NCBI RefSeq assembly: GCF_004570385.1
Contig: NZ_SPQL01000023.1
Location: 1 to 44,383 of the forward strand
From: Blastococcus sp. CT_GayMR19
Lineage (GTDB): Bacteria; Actinomycetota; Actinomycetes; Mycobacteriales; Geodermatophilaceae
Length of the DNA: 44,383 nucleotides
Reading direction: 5' to 3'
Of this stretch, positions 1 to 33,862 are shown one piece after another (the stretch's first letter is position 1; each line of letters opens with the position of its first letter). The position numbers were made by a program, and so were the translations under genes. The notes beneath the pieces were generated by a model. It saw nothing but the letters and a program-made list of their open reading frames with translations. It made no database searches and was not told the DNA's origin.

Positions 1-143
1 AGGCCGCCTGCGACGTCAAGGGCAACCTGCACCAGGGCAAGGTCGGCGTGCTGACCCTCGCCCCCACCGACGGCCTCGGCGTCCGCAACACCGAGAAACG
101 CGAACGACACCTCGAGGCGATCAACCGCTTCCGGGGTCAGTGA
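1..143 (+). CDS. ccr: crotonyl-CoA carboxylase/reductase, C-terminal end (partial)
   Basis: Only the last 46 codons are present; the reading frame begins at base 3 and stops with TGA at 141-143. The segment with GKVGVLTLAP, GLGVRNTEKR and the ending EAINRFRG matches the C-terminus I know from crotonyl-CoA carboxylase/reductase of actinobacteria and methylotrophs. The family reductively carboxylates crotonyl-CoA to ethylmalonyl-CoA with NADPH, feeding the ethylmalonyl-CoA pathway or polyketide extender units. A PHA synthase lies 5 kb away, and both draw on C4 acyl-CoA metabolism, but nothing links them directly here. The family call rests on a short tail, so it is good but not certain. Confidence 0.75.
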   Translation, partial: AACDVKGNLHQGKVGVLTLAPTDGLGVRNTEKRERHLEAINRFRGQ

Positions 144-187
144 ACCGTCCTCCGTCCGGCAGGGCACCATCTCCCTGAGCCGACGAC

Positions 188-212
188 GTCCGACCCTGCC
201 ACGAGGTCGGAC
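188..212 (+). terminator. possible terminator hairpin after ccr
   Basis: A perfect 8-bp stem (188-195 with 205-212) closes a 9-nt loop 45 bases after the ccr stop. No T-run follows, so it may be a weak terminator or mRNA-stabilising hairpin. Confidence 0.35.
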
Positions 213-233
213 TCCCCGATGTCGAGGAGCCGA

Positions 234-1025
234 ATGACCACCTCAGCCGACCCGAGGTCGACGTCCCCCGCAGCACTGCACTCCGTGGCGGACGGCCCCG
301 TGGACGCGCCCGTGCTGGTGCTCGGTCCCTCGCTGGGCACCGATCTCGGCCTCTTCGACGCCCTGGTCCCGGAGCTGGCGCAGCACTACCGCGTGATCCG
401 CTACGACCTGCGCGGGCACGGCGGGTCGCCCGTGGTCCCGGGGCCTTACGGCGTGGCCGACCTCGCCGGCGACGTCGTGGCGCTGCTCGACCAGCTCGGG
501 ATCGAACGGTTCGCGTACGCGGGCGTGTCCCTCGGCGGGGCGATCGGCCTGCAGCTCGCCGTCACGGTCCCCGAACGCGTGAGCCGGCTGATCGTCATCG
601 CCTCGGCCGCGAGCTTCCCCGATCCGCCCTCGTGGAAGGCGCGGGCGGATCGGGTCCGAGCCGAGGGCACGGAGTTCCTCGTCCCGTCGCGGATCGGCGC
701 GTGGGTCACCCCCGGGTTCGCCGAGTCCTCTCCTGAGGAGACCGAGCGGCTGCTGGAGATGCTGCGCGGTACACCGCGCGAGGGTTACGCGGCCTGCTGC
801 GAGACGATCGAGACCTTCGACCTGAGCGACCGCCTGGCCGGGATCACCGCGCCCACCCTGGTGATCGCCGGTGCCGACGACCCGGCCACGCCGCCCGACA
901 CGGTGCGCACGATCGCCGACGGCATCCCGGGTGCCCGCTTCGTCGTCGTCCCGGAGTCGTCTCACCTGGTGAGCGCCGAACAACCGGAGGCGGTCAGCGC
1001 GGAGATCCGCCGCTTCCTGGCCTGA
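234..1025 (+). CDS. alpha/beta hydrolase, 3-oxoadipate enol-lactonase-like
   Basis: This is a 263-residue soluble alpha/beta hydrolase. The nucleophile elbow GVSLGG puts the catalytic Ser near residue 99, a DD pair in the segment GADDPATPP supplies the acid, and His in SSHL near the C-terminus completes the triad. Length and the RYDLRGHGGS strand are typical of PcaD-type enol-lactone hydrolases, which open beta-ketoadipate enol-lactone in protocatechuate/catechol catabolism. I chose the ATG at 234 because GAGGAG lies 4 bases upstream; an in-frame ATG at 219 has no such site. No other pca genes are in view, so the substrate is open and a general esterase role is possible. It converges with the TIM-barrel gene downstream. 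Confidence 0.8.
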   Translation: MTTSADPRSTSPAALHSVADGPVDAPVLVLGPSLGTDLGLFDALVPELAQHYRVIRYDLRGHGGSPVVPGPYGVADLAGDVVALLDQLGIERFAYAGVSLGGAIGLQLAVTVPERVSRLIVIASAASFPDPPSWKARADRVRAEGTEFLVPSRIGAWVTPGFAESSPEETERLLEMLRGTPREGYAACCETIETFDLSDRLAGITAPTLVIAGADDPATPPDTVRTIADGIPGARFVVVPESSHLVSAEQPEAVSAEIRRFLA

Positions 1026-1056
1026 CCGCCGCGGCCACCGGCGGCCGCTGGGTCAC
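1026..1056. terminator. GC-rich inverted repeat between convergent genes
   Basis: The 40-base gap between two convergent genes contains GCGGCC and GGCCGC arms separated by six bases, so either transcript could form a hairpin. No T-tract is present. Confidence 0.3.
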
Positions 1057-1065
1057 TCGAGCCGG

Positions 1066-1875
1066 TCAGATCCCCGCGCGGGCGAGGACCTCGCGGGCGG
1101 CGTCCGCGCTCACCCGCGCGGCGACGTCCACGCCCCGGGCGACCAGTTCCTCGGAGATCACCTCCACCGCCATGACGGCCGGGGTGACGCCGTGCGCGGC
1201 CAGCGCACGGACCAGGCCGACCGTGTCGCCGTACCCCTGCCCGGGTGGCAGCCGGTGGCCCAGCGACTCGGCGCGCGGCGGGTGCATCGGTACCTCCCGG
1301 ACGTCGCACAGCTGCACCGACACGATCCGGTCGGCGGGAATCGGGTCGAGGCCGGCGGGCTCCTGCCCGGCGCGGGCCCAGTGCCAGTTGTCGATGATCA
1401 GGGCGGCGTTGCGCACCGGTGCCACGATCTCCCAGGCGGTGGCGAGGTCGGGGACGCCGCTGTACGGCATGAACTCCAGCGCGACCGTGAGATCCGGGCC
1501 CGCCCGCTCGCAGAGCGCCGCGAACGCGTCGGCCATGACGTCGAGCGGGAGCTCCTCCAGCAGCCCGGCGTTGAGGTGGCGCACGCCGAACGCGCGCGCC
1601 ATGGCGAAGACGGTCTGCTCCTTCCTCTGCTGCGCCTCGTCGCGATCGGCCTCGGTGCCCCAGGCGGTGAGGTACTCCACCTCCAGGATGCGCACCCCGT
1701 GCTGCTCGGCGACGGCGAGCATCGCCGCGTCCTCGAGGTCCGCGTCCCAGTAGTTCTCCGCGCGCAGCCCGATGCCGTCGTACCCGGCAGAGGCGGCCGC
1801 GCGCACGCGGTCGGCGAACGAGACCTCCGTGCCGAGGGTGTAGGAGCTGCAGACCAGCGGTGCCGCTTCGACCAT
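1066..1875 (-). CDS. sugar-phosphate isomerase/epimerase-like TIM-barrel protein
   Basis: A 269-residue protein of the xylose-isomerase-like TIM-barrel (AP endonuclease 2) superfamily. Expected metal-site acids are seen in order: Glu in the VALEFMPYSG strand, Asp in IIDNWHW, and a C-terminal Glu in MAVEVISEE. The superfamily includes inosose dehydratases, hydroxypyruvate isomerases and 3-dehydroshikimate dehydratases (AsbF/QuiC type). It starts 18 bases after the stop of the FAD dehydrogenase, so the two form one transcription unit. Because a dehydroquinate-synthase-like gene and a DAHP synthase are close by, a dehydratase acting on a dehydroshikimate or cyclitol compound is a reasonable guess, but the substrate cannot be read from the sequence. 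Confidence 0.7.
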   Translation of the reverse strand: MVEAAPLVCSSYTLGTEVSFADRVRAAASAGYDGIGLRAENYWDADLEDAAMLAVAEQHGVRILEVEYLTAWGTEADRDEAQQRKEQTVFAMARAFGVRHLNAGLLEELPLDVMADAFAALCERAGPDLTVALEFMPYSGVPDLATAWEIVAPVRNAALIIDNWHWARAGQEPAGLDPIPADRIVSVQLCDVREVPMHPPRAESLGHRLPPGQGYGDTVGLVRALAAHGVTPAVMAVEVISEELVARGVDVAARVSADAAREVLARAGI

Positions 1876-15713: not shown

Positions 15714-15717
<4 letters not shown>

Positions 15718-16574
15718 CGATCCTCCTCGTCGTCCTGCTCGGGATCGTCCTCGGCTGCCGGCTCGTCCGGCACGGAACCGACATAGTCGTCCACGTCGGC
15801 ATCGGCGGCGTCGTCCGCCGTCGTCGGGCCGGTCCACCGCACGTGCAGCTCCCCGAGCGGCGTGAGCTGCTCGAACACCACCCGCTGCTGCCGGTAGAGC
15901 TCCAGCAGCGCGAGGAACCGCGCGACCACCTCGTTGGTGTGGCCGCAGTCGGACGTGAGCGCCCGGAACGACGCCGTCCCCGACCGCACCAGGTGGTTCC
16001 GGACGACGAACAGCTGCTCGGCGACGCTGACGGCCGGCGCGTGCAGGTGGGAGACGCTGACCACCTCGGGCGCCTTCGGCGTCAGCGCCCGCGCGGCGAG
16101 GGCGGCGAACTGCTCGGGCGTGATGTCGAGCAGCACCTCGGGCACCAGCTCCGCGAACCGCGGCTCCAGACCGGCCGACCGGGGGTGCCGCTGGGCCGCC
16201 TCCGCCTCCCGCAGCCGCAGGAACGCCGCGGCCTGCTTGTAGGCCTTGTACTGCAGCAGCCGGGCGAAGAGCAGGTCCCGGGCCTCCAGCAGCTCGAGGT
16301 CCTCCTCGTCGTCCACGTCCGCGGCGGGCAGGAGGCGGGCGGCCTTCAGGTCGAGCAGCGTGGACGCGATGACGAGGAACTCGCTGGCCTGGTCCAGGTC
16401 CAGCTCGTTGCCCAGCGCACGCAGGTGGGCGATGAACTCGTCGGTCACCTTCGACAGGGCGATCTCGGTGACGTCGAGCTTGTGCTTGCCGATCAGCTGC
16501 AGGAGCAGGTCGAACGGGCCCTCGAAGTTGGTGAGGTGCACCGTGAAACGCGACTCCACGTGCGTCTCGGTCAC
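15714..16574 (-). CDS. scpA: segregation and condensation protein A
   Basis: ScpA, 286 residues, is the kleisin subunit of SMC-ScpAB. The N-terminal FTVHLTNFEGPFDLLLQLIGKHKLDVTEIALSKVTDEFI is the SMC-neck-binding signature, and the C-terminal part near residues 200-250 has the winged-helix kleisin end. An acidic tail closes the protein. It starts with GTG at 16574. The upstream 166-base gap to the ribbon-helix-helix gene holds a dispersed repeat element. Neighbours parA, the RHH-like gene, scpB and rluB form a block conserved among actinobacteria. Confidence 0.96.
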
Positions 16575-16610
16575 GACCGCAGCCTAGAGAGCGTCCGGTC
16601 CCGGGGCGCC

Positions 16611-16740
16611 GACGAGCGGGGGCCCGGAGGGCTCCCCGAGAAGGCACCGATTCGGCTCAACGCAGCCGGGACGGCACATGGGCGCGCGGTGTTGTCCGGA
16701 GGACGACGGTGAGCATCGTGTCCTGAGGACGACGGTGAGC
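16611..16740 (-). repeat. composite dispersed repeat, copy 1 (hairpin pair plus conserved box)
   Basis: Read on the minus strand this gap holds, in order, two hairpins with a GTCGTCCTCMGGAC core (second arm set at 16691-16707, first at 16718-16733), the 13-base box GCTGCGTTGAGCC (16654-16666), a GCCC/GGGC hairpin, and CCCCGCTCGTC. The same parts in the same order occur at 32884-33041 on the plus strand. It begins one base after the upstream gene's stop. Function unknown. Confidence 0.7.
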
Positions 16741-17244
16741 TCAGTGCCCCTTGAGCCGGCGGACCAGCACCGAGTCCTCGCCGCGCTCGTCGAGGTCGGC
16801 GAGGATCACGGCGATCGCCTCGCGGACGATCCGGCCCCGGTCGGCGGCCACGGCGTGCTGCCCGCGCAGGGTGAGCCGCGCGCTCTCCAGAGCCATGAGC
16901 TCGTCCGCGGAGATGTAGACCGTGATCTTCTCGTCGTGCTTGGTCCGGTCCGTCCGTCGCATCGGCCGGCCACGCGTCGGGATGCTGGGCTGCAGGGTGG
17001 GCGCCGGCGCCGCGGACCGGTATGCCGCCAGGTCGTCGGCCCCGCCCTGGCTCGCAGCGCCGCCCGGCACCAGCGTCAGCGGCATGGACGGCGTCTCGTC
17101 GGCCTGCCGGGTGCTGCTGCGCAGGGCCGGCGAGCTGGCCGTCGCGCTGAGGCTGGGCAGCTCGGTGACCTCGGCCTCCGAGGATGCTGCGTCGGTGCGA
17201 CGGAAGAGCTCGGACGCACCGGGAAGGACCGGCCTTCTCGTCAT
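16741..17244 (-). CDS. ribbon-helix-helix-like protein partnered with ParA
   Basis: A 167-residue protein with a ~100-residue disordered Ser/Ala/Thr-rich lead, then KHDEKITVYISADELMALESARLTLRG and GRIVREAIAVILADLDERG, which reads as a short basic strand followed by two helices of a ribbon-helix-helix or CopG-like DNA-binding fold. It follows parA by 76 bases in the same direction and precedes scpA. Small DNA-binding partners of ParA-like ATPases are common, so it may direct the ATPase to DNA. The function is inferred from fold and context only. Confidence 0.65.
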   Translation of the reverse strand: MTRRPVLPGASELFRRTDAASSEAEVTELPSLSATASSPALRSSTRQADETPSMPLTLVPGGAASQGGADDLAAYRSAAPAPTLQPSIPTRGRPMRRTDRTKHDEKITVYISADELMALESARLTLRGQHAVAADRGRIVREAIAVILADLDERGEDSVLVRRLKGH

Positions 17245-32027: not shown

Positions 32028-32878
32028 TGACTGGAGTGGCGCACGCCTTGCCCCGAACCGCATCCGTACCTGCACCTTCTCCCGAGGTGCCCGCCGCGGC
32101 CGAGGCGGCGTCCGCCACCCCCACGATCAGGGCGGTTCCCTCGGTCCAGGCCCGCACCGAGGCCCCGGCCCGTGACGTCGAGCCTCTGCCGGCGGCAGCA
32201 CCGGTCGAGGCGGATACGCCCGGTAAGGACCGCAGGGCCACGAGGGGTCCGGGACGGCGGGAGCTCCGCCGCCAGGAGACGCGGGCGGGCATCGTGGACG
32301 CGGCCGCCGAACTGTTCGCCGAGCGTGGCTTCGACTCGGTGAGCGTGATGGAGATCGCACGGCGCGCGGGCGTGGTGGAGAAGACGGTCTTCAACCACTT
32401 CCCCGTCAAGGAGGGCCTGGTCTTCGACGCCGACCCGCCGATGCGGACCGCTCTGCTCGACGCGGTCCGCCGGCGGCCGGCGGGTGAGTCGGTGTCGGCC
32501 GCGGCGGGAAGCTTCGTCGTCGCCGCGGTCAGCCTCCTGGGCTCCCCCGAGGCCGCCACCGGAGTGGCCCAGATGGCGCGGGTCATCCGCGGGAGCCGCA
32601 CCCTGCAGGTGCGGGAGCGCGAGATCCTCGGCGAGCTGACGAACGCCCTCGCCGGTCTCATCGCGGAGGAGACGGGCGCGCGCCCGGGCCAGGTCGAGCC
32701 GTGGCTGGCCGCCCACGCCGTCCTCGGGCTCTACGCGTCGCTGCTGGAGCTGGCACGCGACCAGATCCTCGCCGGGGTCGACGGTCCGGAGCTCTCCGCC
32801 GAGCTGCGGCGTCAGGGGCGCCGGGGGCTGGCCCTGCTCCAGTTCGGCCTGGCCGGCTACGCGAAAAGGAGGCCATGA
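32027..32878 (+). CDS. TetR-family transcriptional regulator
   Basis: The 283-residue protein has a ~75-residue Ala/Pro-rich disordered lead, then the TetR DNA-binding domain (RAGIVDAAAELFAERGFDSVSVMEIARRAGVVEKTVFNHFPVKEGLVFD) and a helical ligand domain. GTG 32027 is preferred because TAACGT stands seven bases before it; other GTG codons at 32009 and 32036 exist. It is divergent from steA across about 165 bases, so it may control itself and the steA run. Its stop is followed at once by the second copy of the composite repeat. Ligand unknown. Confidence 0.85.
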   Translation: MTGVAHALPRTASVPAPSPEVPAAAEAASATPTIRAVPSVQARTEAPARDVEPLPAAAPVEADTPGKDRRATRGPGRRELRRQETRAGIVDAAAELFAERGFDSVSVMEIARRAGVVEKTVFNHFPVKEGLVFDADPPMRTALLDAVRRRPAGESVSAAAGSFVVAAVSLLGSPEAATGVAQMARVIRGSRTLQVREREILGELTNALAGLIAEETGARPGQVEPWLAAHAVLGLYASLLELARDQILAGVDGPELSAELRRQGRRGLALLQFGLAGYAKRRP

Positions 32879-32883
32879 CATCT

Positions 32884-33147
32884 GTCGTCCTCCGGCCGAC
32901 GACCGCTCTACCACTTGTCATCCTCCGGCTGACACCGCATGACTCTGTCGTCCTCCGGACGACGATCGCGGCCAGGGCCGTTCCCCCGCTGCGTTGAGCC
33001 CATCCCGGCACTCCTCGGGAACCCTTCGGGCCCCGCTCGTCGTGCCGTCTCGCGGAGCGGCTCTCGTTGTGCGACGCGACTACGCACTTCTCCAGTCGGT
33101 GCCGCGGCTTCCTGCCCCTCTTCGGAGAGCCCTCCGGGCCCCCGCTC
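32884..33147 (+). repeat. composite dispersed repeat, copy 2 (three hairpins plus conserved boxes)
   Basis: Three 31-32-base units each carry an inverted repeat around TCCTCCGG: 32884-32903 (GTCGTC/GACGAC), 32916-32934 (TGTCA/TGACA) and 32947-32963 (7-bp stem, 3-nt loop). Stem changes are compensated. Then come GCTGCGTTGAGCC at 32988-33000 and a hairpin ending CCCCGCTCGTC at 33041, as in the 16611-16740 copy. A third, partial relative of the end hairpin lies at 33096-33147 and reaches the convergent gene's stop. GTGCG/CGCAC arms near 33070 make another hairpin. No gene is seen in this 267-base gap. Confidence 0.75.
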
Positions 33148-33862
33148 AGAGGGGCAGCTGCAGGGCGCGGAGGAGCTGGTCGGCCCGGTCGCCGGGGGCG
33201 TCGGAGTTCCGGGTGAAGAGCGCCACCGCGACCATGTAGCCGTCGTCGCCGGCCCAGCCGCGCCCGTCGGCGCACAGCCGCCGGATGTGGTCGCGCACCT
33301 TGGGCTCGCTGCTGTAGGGCCCGTAGTCCAGACCCATGGCGAGGAAGTTGACCACGCGGTAGCCGAGATCGGCCGCGGTGCGGACGGTCGTGAGCGGGTC
33401 GGAGTAGCTCGCGACGGCCGCGATCACGTTGTCGTAGCCGGCCTTCAGCAGCTGCAGCATCAGGTCGTTGCCGTACACCCCACCCCACAGTTCCGGCATG
33501 AGGATGTCGCGGTCGGGGGCCGGGATGTAGGGCGGATTGCTGATGACGGTCGACACCGGGGGCCCACCGGCCGCATCCGCCTGGTCGAAGAAGTCCCCCA
33601 GCTCGACGGTGTACCGGTCGGCGATGCCGCGCGCCTCGATGTTGGCCTGGGCGGCGGCGACGCTGGATGGGCTGATGTCGAAGCTGTGGACGCGGAGGCC
33701 GGGCAGCGCGACGACCACGTCGGCGATGGCGGTGGCGTCACCGGTGCCGAGCTCGACCACGCCTTCCTCCGCCCAGCGAAGCTCGGTCCGGTACTGCTCG
33801 AGCAGCATGCAGACCGAAAAGCCGTAGTGCGCCGACTCGTCGGCTGAGGAGAAGCAGCTCAC
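33146..33862 (-). CDS. class I SAM-dependent methyltransferase, HemK/PrmC-like
   Basis: A 238-residue Rossmann methyltransferase. Motif I is VVELGTGDATAIADVV, motif II acid in VHSFDISPSSV, and motif IV is SNPPYIPAP, the NPPY signature of enzymes that methylate planar nitrogens such as glutamine in release factors or adenine in DNA. It lacks the N-terminal substrate-binding domain of PrmC, so its target is unclear. GTG start at 33862. It stands alone between recN and the TetR gene and interrupts the recN-steA order known from Mycobacterium. Confidence 0.75.
   Translation of the reverse strand: MSCFSSADESAHYGFSVCMLLEQYRTELRWAEEGVVELGTGDATAIADVVVALPGLRVHSFDISPSSVAAAQANIEARGIADRYTVELGDFFDQADAAGGPPVSTVISNPPYIPAPDRDILMPELWGGVYGNDLMLQLLKAGYDNVIAAVASYSDPLTTVRTAADLGYRVVNFLAMGLDYGPYSSEPKVRDHIRRLCADGRGWAGDDGYMVAVALFTRNSDAPGDRADQLLRALQLPL

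Follow-up and report, generated by a model that had tools for sequence, protein, structure and literature searches.

A dispersed composite hairpin repeat at gene 3' ends in Blastococcus and other Geodermatophilaceae

The window (the whole stretch of DNA that was analysed, 44,383 nucleotides of contig NZ_SPQL01000023.1 from Blastococcus sp. CT_GayMR19) contains two copies of a composite intergenic repeat. Copy 1 separates a TetR-family regulator from a convergent methyltransferase-like gene. Copy 2, on the other strand, lies between a small gene and a tandem ScpA gene. The features are as follows.

32087..32878, plus strand: TetR-family regulator upstream of copy 1, start approximate (PF00440, E 5.7e-16)
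32876..33046, plus strand: copy 1 of the element, from the TetR gene stop codon to the right-hand end (model match 32939-33046, preceded by two further left hairpins)
32876..32878, plus strand: TGA that is both the stop of the TetR-family gene, which ends at 32878, and the left terminus of the element (TGACA...)
32884..32903, plus strand: copy 1 left hairpin unit 1, GTCGTC / GACGAC (sequence reading)
32916..32934, plus strand: copy 1 left hairpin unit 2, TGTCA / TGACA, a compensatory change (sequence reading)
32947..32963, plus strand: copy 1 left hairpin unit 3, GTCGTCCTCCGGACGAC (sequence reading), helix 1 of the covariation tests
32967..33001, plus strand: copy 1 conserved core, holding the 13-mer box at 32988-33000 (family form CGCGGCCAnnnGCCGTyCCC...GCGTTGAGCC; copy 1 is one base shorter)
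33002..33046, plus strand: copy 1 right-hand hairpin module with a type B right end, ...CCCTTCGGG...CTCGTCG (sequence and alignment)
33047..33147, plus strand: copy 1 extra module, a short CTCGCGGAGCGGCTC hairpin and a second right-end hairpin (similar arrangement in G004)
33146..33862, minus strand: methyltransferase-like gene, convergent, beyond copy 1 (five Pfam hits, all under curated cut-offs)
16741..17244, minus strand: gene upstream of copy 2 (no Pfam family at E≤0.001)
16606..16743, minus strand: copy 2 of the element, with two left hairpin units, core and type B right end (model match 16606-16715)
16743-16741, minus strand: stop codon of the small upstream gene, the start of copy 2
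16691..16707, minus strand: copy 2 left hairpin closest to the core, GTCGTCCTCCGGACAAC (sequence reading)
15714..16574, minus strand: ScpA gene, tandem, downstream of copy 2 (PF02616, E 2.7e-57)

Both copies lie where the original prediction placed them, and copy 1 used as a query retrieved copy 2 at E 3.8e-10. The predicted hairpin spacing of 27-32 bases is approximate: TCCTCCGG occurs in copy 1 at 32888, 32921 and 32951, a spacing of 33 and 30, and copy 2 has a single TCCTCCGG at 16703-16696 with an imperfect TCCTCAGG starting at 16729, 26 bases ahead. As proposed, a 13-base box is common to both copies. The exact sequence GCTGCGTTGAGCC occurs at 32988-33000 (+), at 16654-16666 (-) and once more on a different contig, and its reversed, uncomplemented control had no occurrences. 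However, the box is not the most conserved part of the element, since ACCGCGGCCAnnnGCCGTyCC is more conserved in the alignment of host copies; in the window, a close form of this longer motif is matched by copy 2 only, with 3 mismatches. The octamer TCCTCCGG was observed 14 times in the window versus 4.95 expected, 4 times in the two copies and 10 times inside called genes, and the family therefore rests on the whole element rather than on the octamer. Single-sequence folding of the window copies was unremarkable (z -1.73 and -1.54). The TetR assignment of the gene preceding copy 1 was borne out by Pfam, whereas the RHH-like identity suggested for the gene preceding copy 2 could not be confirmed. 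The copies had been described as starting a few bases past a stop codon; their placement at gene ends stands, but the start is the stop codon itself (32876 on the plus strand, 16743 on the minus strand). What had been read as a partial third end at 33096-33147 is actually a second right-hand hairpin module.

The repeat is abundant in its host. Copy 1 as a BLAST query on the host genome gave 47 matches at E≤1, and 29 host copies, from 30 loci fetched by this search (L023 was left out), were aligned to make the covariance model R1. With R1, scoring the best 150 of 11,808 first-look candidates gave at least 99 matches at E≤0.1 in the host genome. Each of the 16 genus genomes, the host included, has matches (10-98 each at E≤0.01), as do 101 of 112 genomes of the family at E≤0.001, where copy numbers are lower bounds because no more than 34 candidates were scored per genome. 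The two window copies thus have many further counterparts in host and family, some of them in tandem. A pattern scan gave named carriers: among the matches listed, 79 of 80 loci are titled Blastococcus, Geodermatophilus, Modestobacter, Klenkia or Geodermatophilaceae bacterium, and the remaining one is an 'unverified' Bacillus record.

Matches outside the family were rare. In a sample of the order, 39 of 249 genomes matched, 38 of them in the family and the other being G248, whose contig has long matches of 72-86% identity to loci L129 and L100. In a sample of the class, the matches were confined to 3 of 394 genomes, namely the host, one family genome and G342, whose contig is 83% identical over 979 bases to Blastococcus locus L097. 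Because these two contigs resemble Geodermatophilaceae loci, both outliers probably reflect contamination or misbinning. Plasmid, phage and viral-contig collections gave zero matches to one copy by distant blastn and to one exact pattern. Two family genomes that are each 99% complete (G030 and G079) had no match under strict filters, and other sampled genomes of their genera did; natural loss is possible in these two.

The element is a composite of about 110 bases consisting of left hairpins, a conserved core and a right hairpin module. The left part has one to about four units that repeat head to tail; in each, a hairpin with a stem of at most 7 bp and, in most cases, a TCC loop follows what is usually TGACAyy. 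The core reads ACCGCGGCCAnnnGCCGTyCC, followed by a variable stretch and ...GAGCC. The hairpin of the right module is mostly CCC(TCC/TTC/TGC)GGG and is closed in many copies by an outer stem, e.g. GTCGCGCC/GGCGCGAC; the window copies bear a second right-end type (CTCGTCG). The extra module, a short CTCGCGGGGCGGC-type hairpin and then a second right-end hairpin, was seen by eye at 33047-33147 of the window and in L201, L006 and L013, which suggests modular growth at the right end. Judged from the repeats alone, the few left units with diverged stems, the short joins and the dispersal of the copies set the element apart from a standard CRISPR, as the original prediction had stated.

The compensatory stem changes noted in the window were borne out on 93 named-genome copies and 54 host rows (50 distinct), and two hairpins covary against both shuffled and slid controls. 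Helix 1 shows 96.9% pairing in the named-genome copies, and 4 of its 7 pairs have changes on both sides; for the right inner helix the corresponding values are 98.4% and 3 of 3. The covariation score was 0.252 for these copies (0.084 shuffled, ≤0.033 slid) and 0.221 for the host copies by themselves (0.089 shuffled, ≤0.038 slid), in alignments fitted to the model and with shuffle controls that ignore the kinship of copies. A fuller 25-pair structure was 84.7% paired and scored 0.221 versus 0.089 shuffled and ≤0.049 slid, its outer stem being paired in just 58-67% of cells. The named copies were fetched by a pattern that fixes the loop and core, and conservation there is therefore partly by construction; most stem bases were free. 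The small middle helix has hardly any pair variation and is uninformative either way. An independent MAFFT alignment of the 29 host copies showed two-sided changes in 4 of 14 predicted pairs, but the covariation term given by RNAalifold was only -0.05 of -12.7 kcal/mol. Sense-strand A-C mismatches outnumber G-U pairs in the named copies, 9 to 1 in the left hairpin and 14 to 4 in the outer stem, an excess that would point to the other strand. In a wider count of the left hairpin the figures were 14 to 5 for named copies (p 0.064) and 6 to 7 for host copies.

The position of the element relative to genes was assessed with our own codon-bias gene caller, after removal of duplicates and of any cluster no more than 300 bases from the end of its locus; the host loci were 43 of the 99, taken from the better matches. 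Among the 118 clusters placed (40 host, 78 named), 58 are convergent, 36 sense tandem, 17 antisense tandem and 7 divergent; 24 have no upstream sense gene. Sense tandem positions exceed antisense ones (p 0.013). Compared with background at the named loci, convergent pairs are enriched (42/79 vs 56/449) and divergent pairs depleted (4/79 vs 86/449).

The left end of the element is anchored at stop codons. A complete sense gene lies upstream in 96 clusters (94 in the preceding count, the neighbour rules differing slightly between the two), and in 28 of these the stop codon is bases 2-4 of the element, at an offset of exactly -4 (24 TGA, 4 TAA, 0 TAG). Relative to an even spread over a 25-base span, this exact offset has p 3e-22, or 4e-18 without four orthologues. 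The stop falls within -5 to +8 in 61 of the 96, and in several other clusters additional left hairpins place the same TGACA or TAACA at the stop codon. TAG stops are rare (2/96 vs 81/701, p 0.002; p 0.06 within the 28 alone) and TAA stops somewhat enriched (7/96 vs 20/701, p 0.03), a pattern that would follow if TRAC were part of the element or of its target. In a few copies the reading frame of the gene continues into the element and ends at the core TGA (offsets -54 to -60), which indicates that some insertions are out of frame with the element's own first TGA. The positional bias of the element is strong, and together with the many further copies and the structural covariation it leaves the original prediction unrefuted.

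Five host sites were compared with their counterparts in 15 congeners (14 for site D) by DNA searches, junction alignments and the covariance model. In 74 site-by-genome comparisons the element was in the same orientation in 16, in the opposite orientation in 8 and not detected in 50. Listed in that order, the counts were 3, 0 and 12 at site 1; 5, 2 and 8 at site 2; 2, 0 and 13 at site A; 6, 1 and 8 at site B; and 0, 5 and 9 at site D. Three of the occupied statuses are weak matches of 23-26 bits (L216, L224, L265), and remnants visible by eye in G015 (sites 2 and D) and G009 (site D) were scored as not detected. Since sites 1, 2 and B include copies that are weak or decayed, part of the absence must be loss. 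The closest pair, G010 and G011, is 93.5% identical over 1,012 flank positions; the element has opposite orientations in the two genomes at sites 2 and B, and only one of them carries it at site A (the comparison excludes site D in G010).

Where the junction was read, the opposite-orientation copies also begin at stop codons. All 5 at site D start at the in-frame TGA of the other gene, and those of G010 start at a TGA (site 2) and at a TAA (site B), so in-place inversion alone is insufficient to explain them. In a fragment in G009 at site 2, the gene continues into the element. Some loci that lack the element are very compact, with 2, 14 and 35 unaligned bases between the genes at site D in G012, G007 and G003. 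No target-site duplication was readable in the junction alignments with congeners, the relatives being too diverged.

Other repeats and a transposase gene were observed at some of these sites. A second, unrelated hairpin repeat (family 2, GGACCCC...CCCCACC.CTCGC..GCTCGCGGCGGG.CCCTGC...GGGGCC) is found in either orientation at the same gene ends in some congeners without the first element: in L266, L267 and L270 (site B), L252 (site D) and 8 more loci, and by eye in L222 and L223 (site 1). A loose pattern gave 13 distinct instances of it among the analysed loci. The convergent site D of G005 is filled by a different tandem repeat (L249, 131-520; period 164, 2.4 copies). At site A of G011 (L240), an IS110-family transposase gene (128-1207, minus strand; PF01548 and PF02371) separates two parts of the element (model matches 80-166 and 1426-1517), and as the split lies in the conserved core, the element may be an IS110 landing site. 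Adjoining another copy, L038 1633-1937 (minus strand) gave a sub-threshold Rfam match to the cspA thermoregulator (43.2 bits, cut-off 78).

A few sites are occupied in more than one genus. A gene ending NIPL*, which we take to be an acyl-CoA carboxylase subunit, is followed by the element in 6 genomes: 2 Geodermatophilus, 2 Blastococcus, 1 Geodermatophilaceae bacterium and the host. The short gene behind it presumably resembles an epsilon subunit. The left stem has four versions at this site, two fully paired and two with one A-C mismatch. A gene ending GGGQYL carries the element in a Blastococcus, a Geodermatophilaceae bacterium and the G248 contig. One shared site lies between two genes resembling a single operon. 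All of the NIPL* and GGGQYL loci were found through the element itself, and repeated insertion could also have given rise to shared sites.

A search for candidate mobilising enzymes in the 112 family genomes identified no mobiliser of the element. Y1_Tnp (PF01797) was found in 0/112, and 5 of 14 control genomes were positive; a REP/RAYT or IS200/IS605-derived element was rejected on this ground. Y2_Tnp was found in a single family genome (G066) and in 0 of 14 control genomes, the G066 hit being the sole positive control for this search; because G066 has no element match, an IS91-type route was rejected. A retro-element route was likewise rejected, as RVT_1 occurs in 49/112 family genomes but is absent from the host with its 99 copies. 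As to MITE traits, no common terminal repeat was seen by eye and no partner was evident among the host matches. In Rfam searches the window matched 5S rRNA and tRNA only, and in 5 loci searched at E≤1 no family covered the element.

Integron attC sites are folded elements directly behind a gene, in cassette arrays. The repeat resembles them in its place right behind genes and in the GTTGAGC of some copies, but its copies are scattered outside cassette arrays and GTT is not conserved across them, and an attC identity was dropped for the latter reason. The closest likeness is to REPs in the broad sense. In the available text of Di Nocera 2013 (PMC3733652), GTAG/CGTC REPs are small, palindromic, intergenic, high-copy repeats, mostly in convergent or co-directional pairs and near gene 3' ends; in two species most convergent REPs lie ≤20 bp from both gene ends, and GTAG termini often provide a TAG stop. 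The element shares the high copy number, the palindromes, the intergenic position near gene 3' ends and, as far as that text describes it, a conserved unpaired end tag that often supplies the stop (TAG in REPs, TGA or TAA here). In contrast, its tag before the stem is TGACAyy rather than GTAG or CGTC, it is composite and about 110 bases long, combining several hairpins and a long core, rather than a 20-40 bp palindrome often in head-to-head pairs, and the Y1 tyrosine transposase of REP/RAYT systems is found in 0/112 family genomes. It is thus REP-like in a broad sense and outside the GTAG/CGTC superfamilies by tag, size, architecture and transposase. The main text of PMC3733652 does not mention Geodermatophilus, Blastococcus, Modestobacter or Actinobacteria.

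MIRU of mycobacteria, as described in PMC12548453, insert at start codons with a coupled ORF. Like these, the element is a short, apparently mobile repeat placed exactly at a translation signal; by the same description it differs in lying at stop codons, often between convergent genes, and in its covarying hairpins, and the start codons downstream of it lie at scattered distances. Searches of the open-licence PMC literature did not list the element, and the available portion of PMC4255298 holds nothing relevant.

Taken together, the analysis shows about 100 dispersed copies with covarying hairpins, a left end anchored at the stop codon, gene ends at which the element is variably present and in both orientations, and a few sites shared between genera. 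The dispersal, the occurrence in both orientations and the variable presence favour mobility, and the covarying hairpins, the shared sites and the anchoring at gene ends speak for a role at the 3' end. With slightly better than even confidence, we interpret the repeat as a REP-like, non-autonomous dispersed element that acts as a portable 3' end. Such an element would be, or would once have been, mobile, inserting or surviving at the 3' ends of genes and bringing a TGA or TAA that would replace the host stop or coincide with it. Its transcript would form hairpins from about 4 nt past the stop, and these may serve to block exonucleases, to separate convergent transcription or, inside operons, to weaken read-through. 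Roles of this sort at 3' ends have been proposed for REP/BIME repeats. A rather doubtful alternative is a mobile element that seeks stop codons. Here the left terminus TGAC/TAAC would be a landing signal, and an enzyme other than a Y1/Y2 transposase or reverse transcriptase would bring the element into gene ends in either orientation, leaving the gene intact and supplying a structured 3' UTR.

A rival reading is an element that is chiefly a transcription terminator kept by selection, a shared cassette copied to gene ends by recombination, with mobility incidental. Like intrinsic terminators, the element has GC-rich hairpins at gene ends, with a strong convergent preference. Its right-hairpin loops TCCG, TTCG and TGCG fit UNCG, some of its sites are common to several genera, and by eye the family 2 repeat stands in either orientation at some sites where congeners lack it. 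However, no T-run was seen after the hairpins on reading copies, a terminator would have no use for the long conserved core, one shared site lies within a probable operon, and the exact left-end offset is left unexplained; we consider this reading unlikely. The fold could instead be one of single-stranded DNA, in a transposon remnant whose bottom strand forms hairpins with GNA loops and was moved by an unrecognised HUH-type enzyme. The covarying stems and the one-sided target preference would suit this, as would the loop variants, which read GNA or GGNA on the bottom strand, and the outer-stem A-C mismatches, which are G-T on the opposite strand. The absence of Y1_Tnp from the 112 family genomes, the single Y2_Tnp hit among them and the lack of asymmetry in the wider host left-hairpin count make it distinctly improbable.

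The original prediction had offered a 3'-UTR regulatory RNA, a protein-binding array and a small mobile element as possible readings. Of these the data favour the last, a scattered and seemingly mobile element that lodges at the 3' ends of genes and probably has a function there. An array of protein-binding sites, e.g. for a nucleoid or partition protein, would agree with the highly conserved, partly dyadic core CGGCCAnnTGCCG and with the repetition of the left units. A sequence-specific site, however, has no need of compensatory stem changes, and such an array does not account for placement that tracks stop codons so exactly; we regard it as very improbable. Covariation and sense position are what a cis-regulatory RNA or riboswitch-like 3'-UTR of specific genes would display, but the copies stand behind different genes, which leaves a gene-specific regulatory RNA unsupported, and the window and 5 loci (E≤1) gave no Rfam match over the element. 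We give this reading hardly any credence.

The REP-like element is present in most sampled genomes of the Geodermatophilaceae as a high-copy, structurally conserved repeat for which no counterpart was found in Rfam or in searches of the open-licence PMC literature. If it is mobile, it illustrates how a selfish repeat can persist by landing at the stop codon, where it does the least harm or the most good. It is also relevant to the way in which transcripts are ended between closely packed convergent genes in GC-rich actinobacteria, a question that can be tested directly at the sites that are occupied, empty or inverted in related species.
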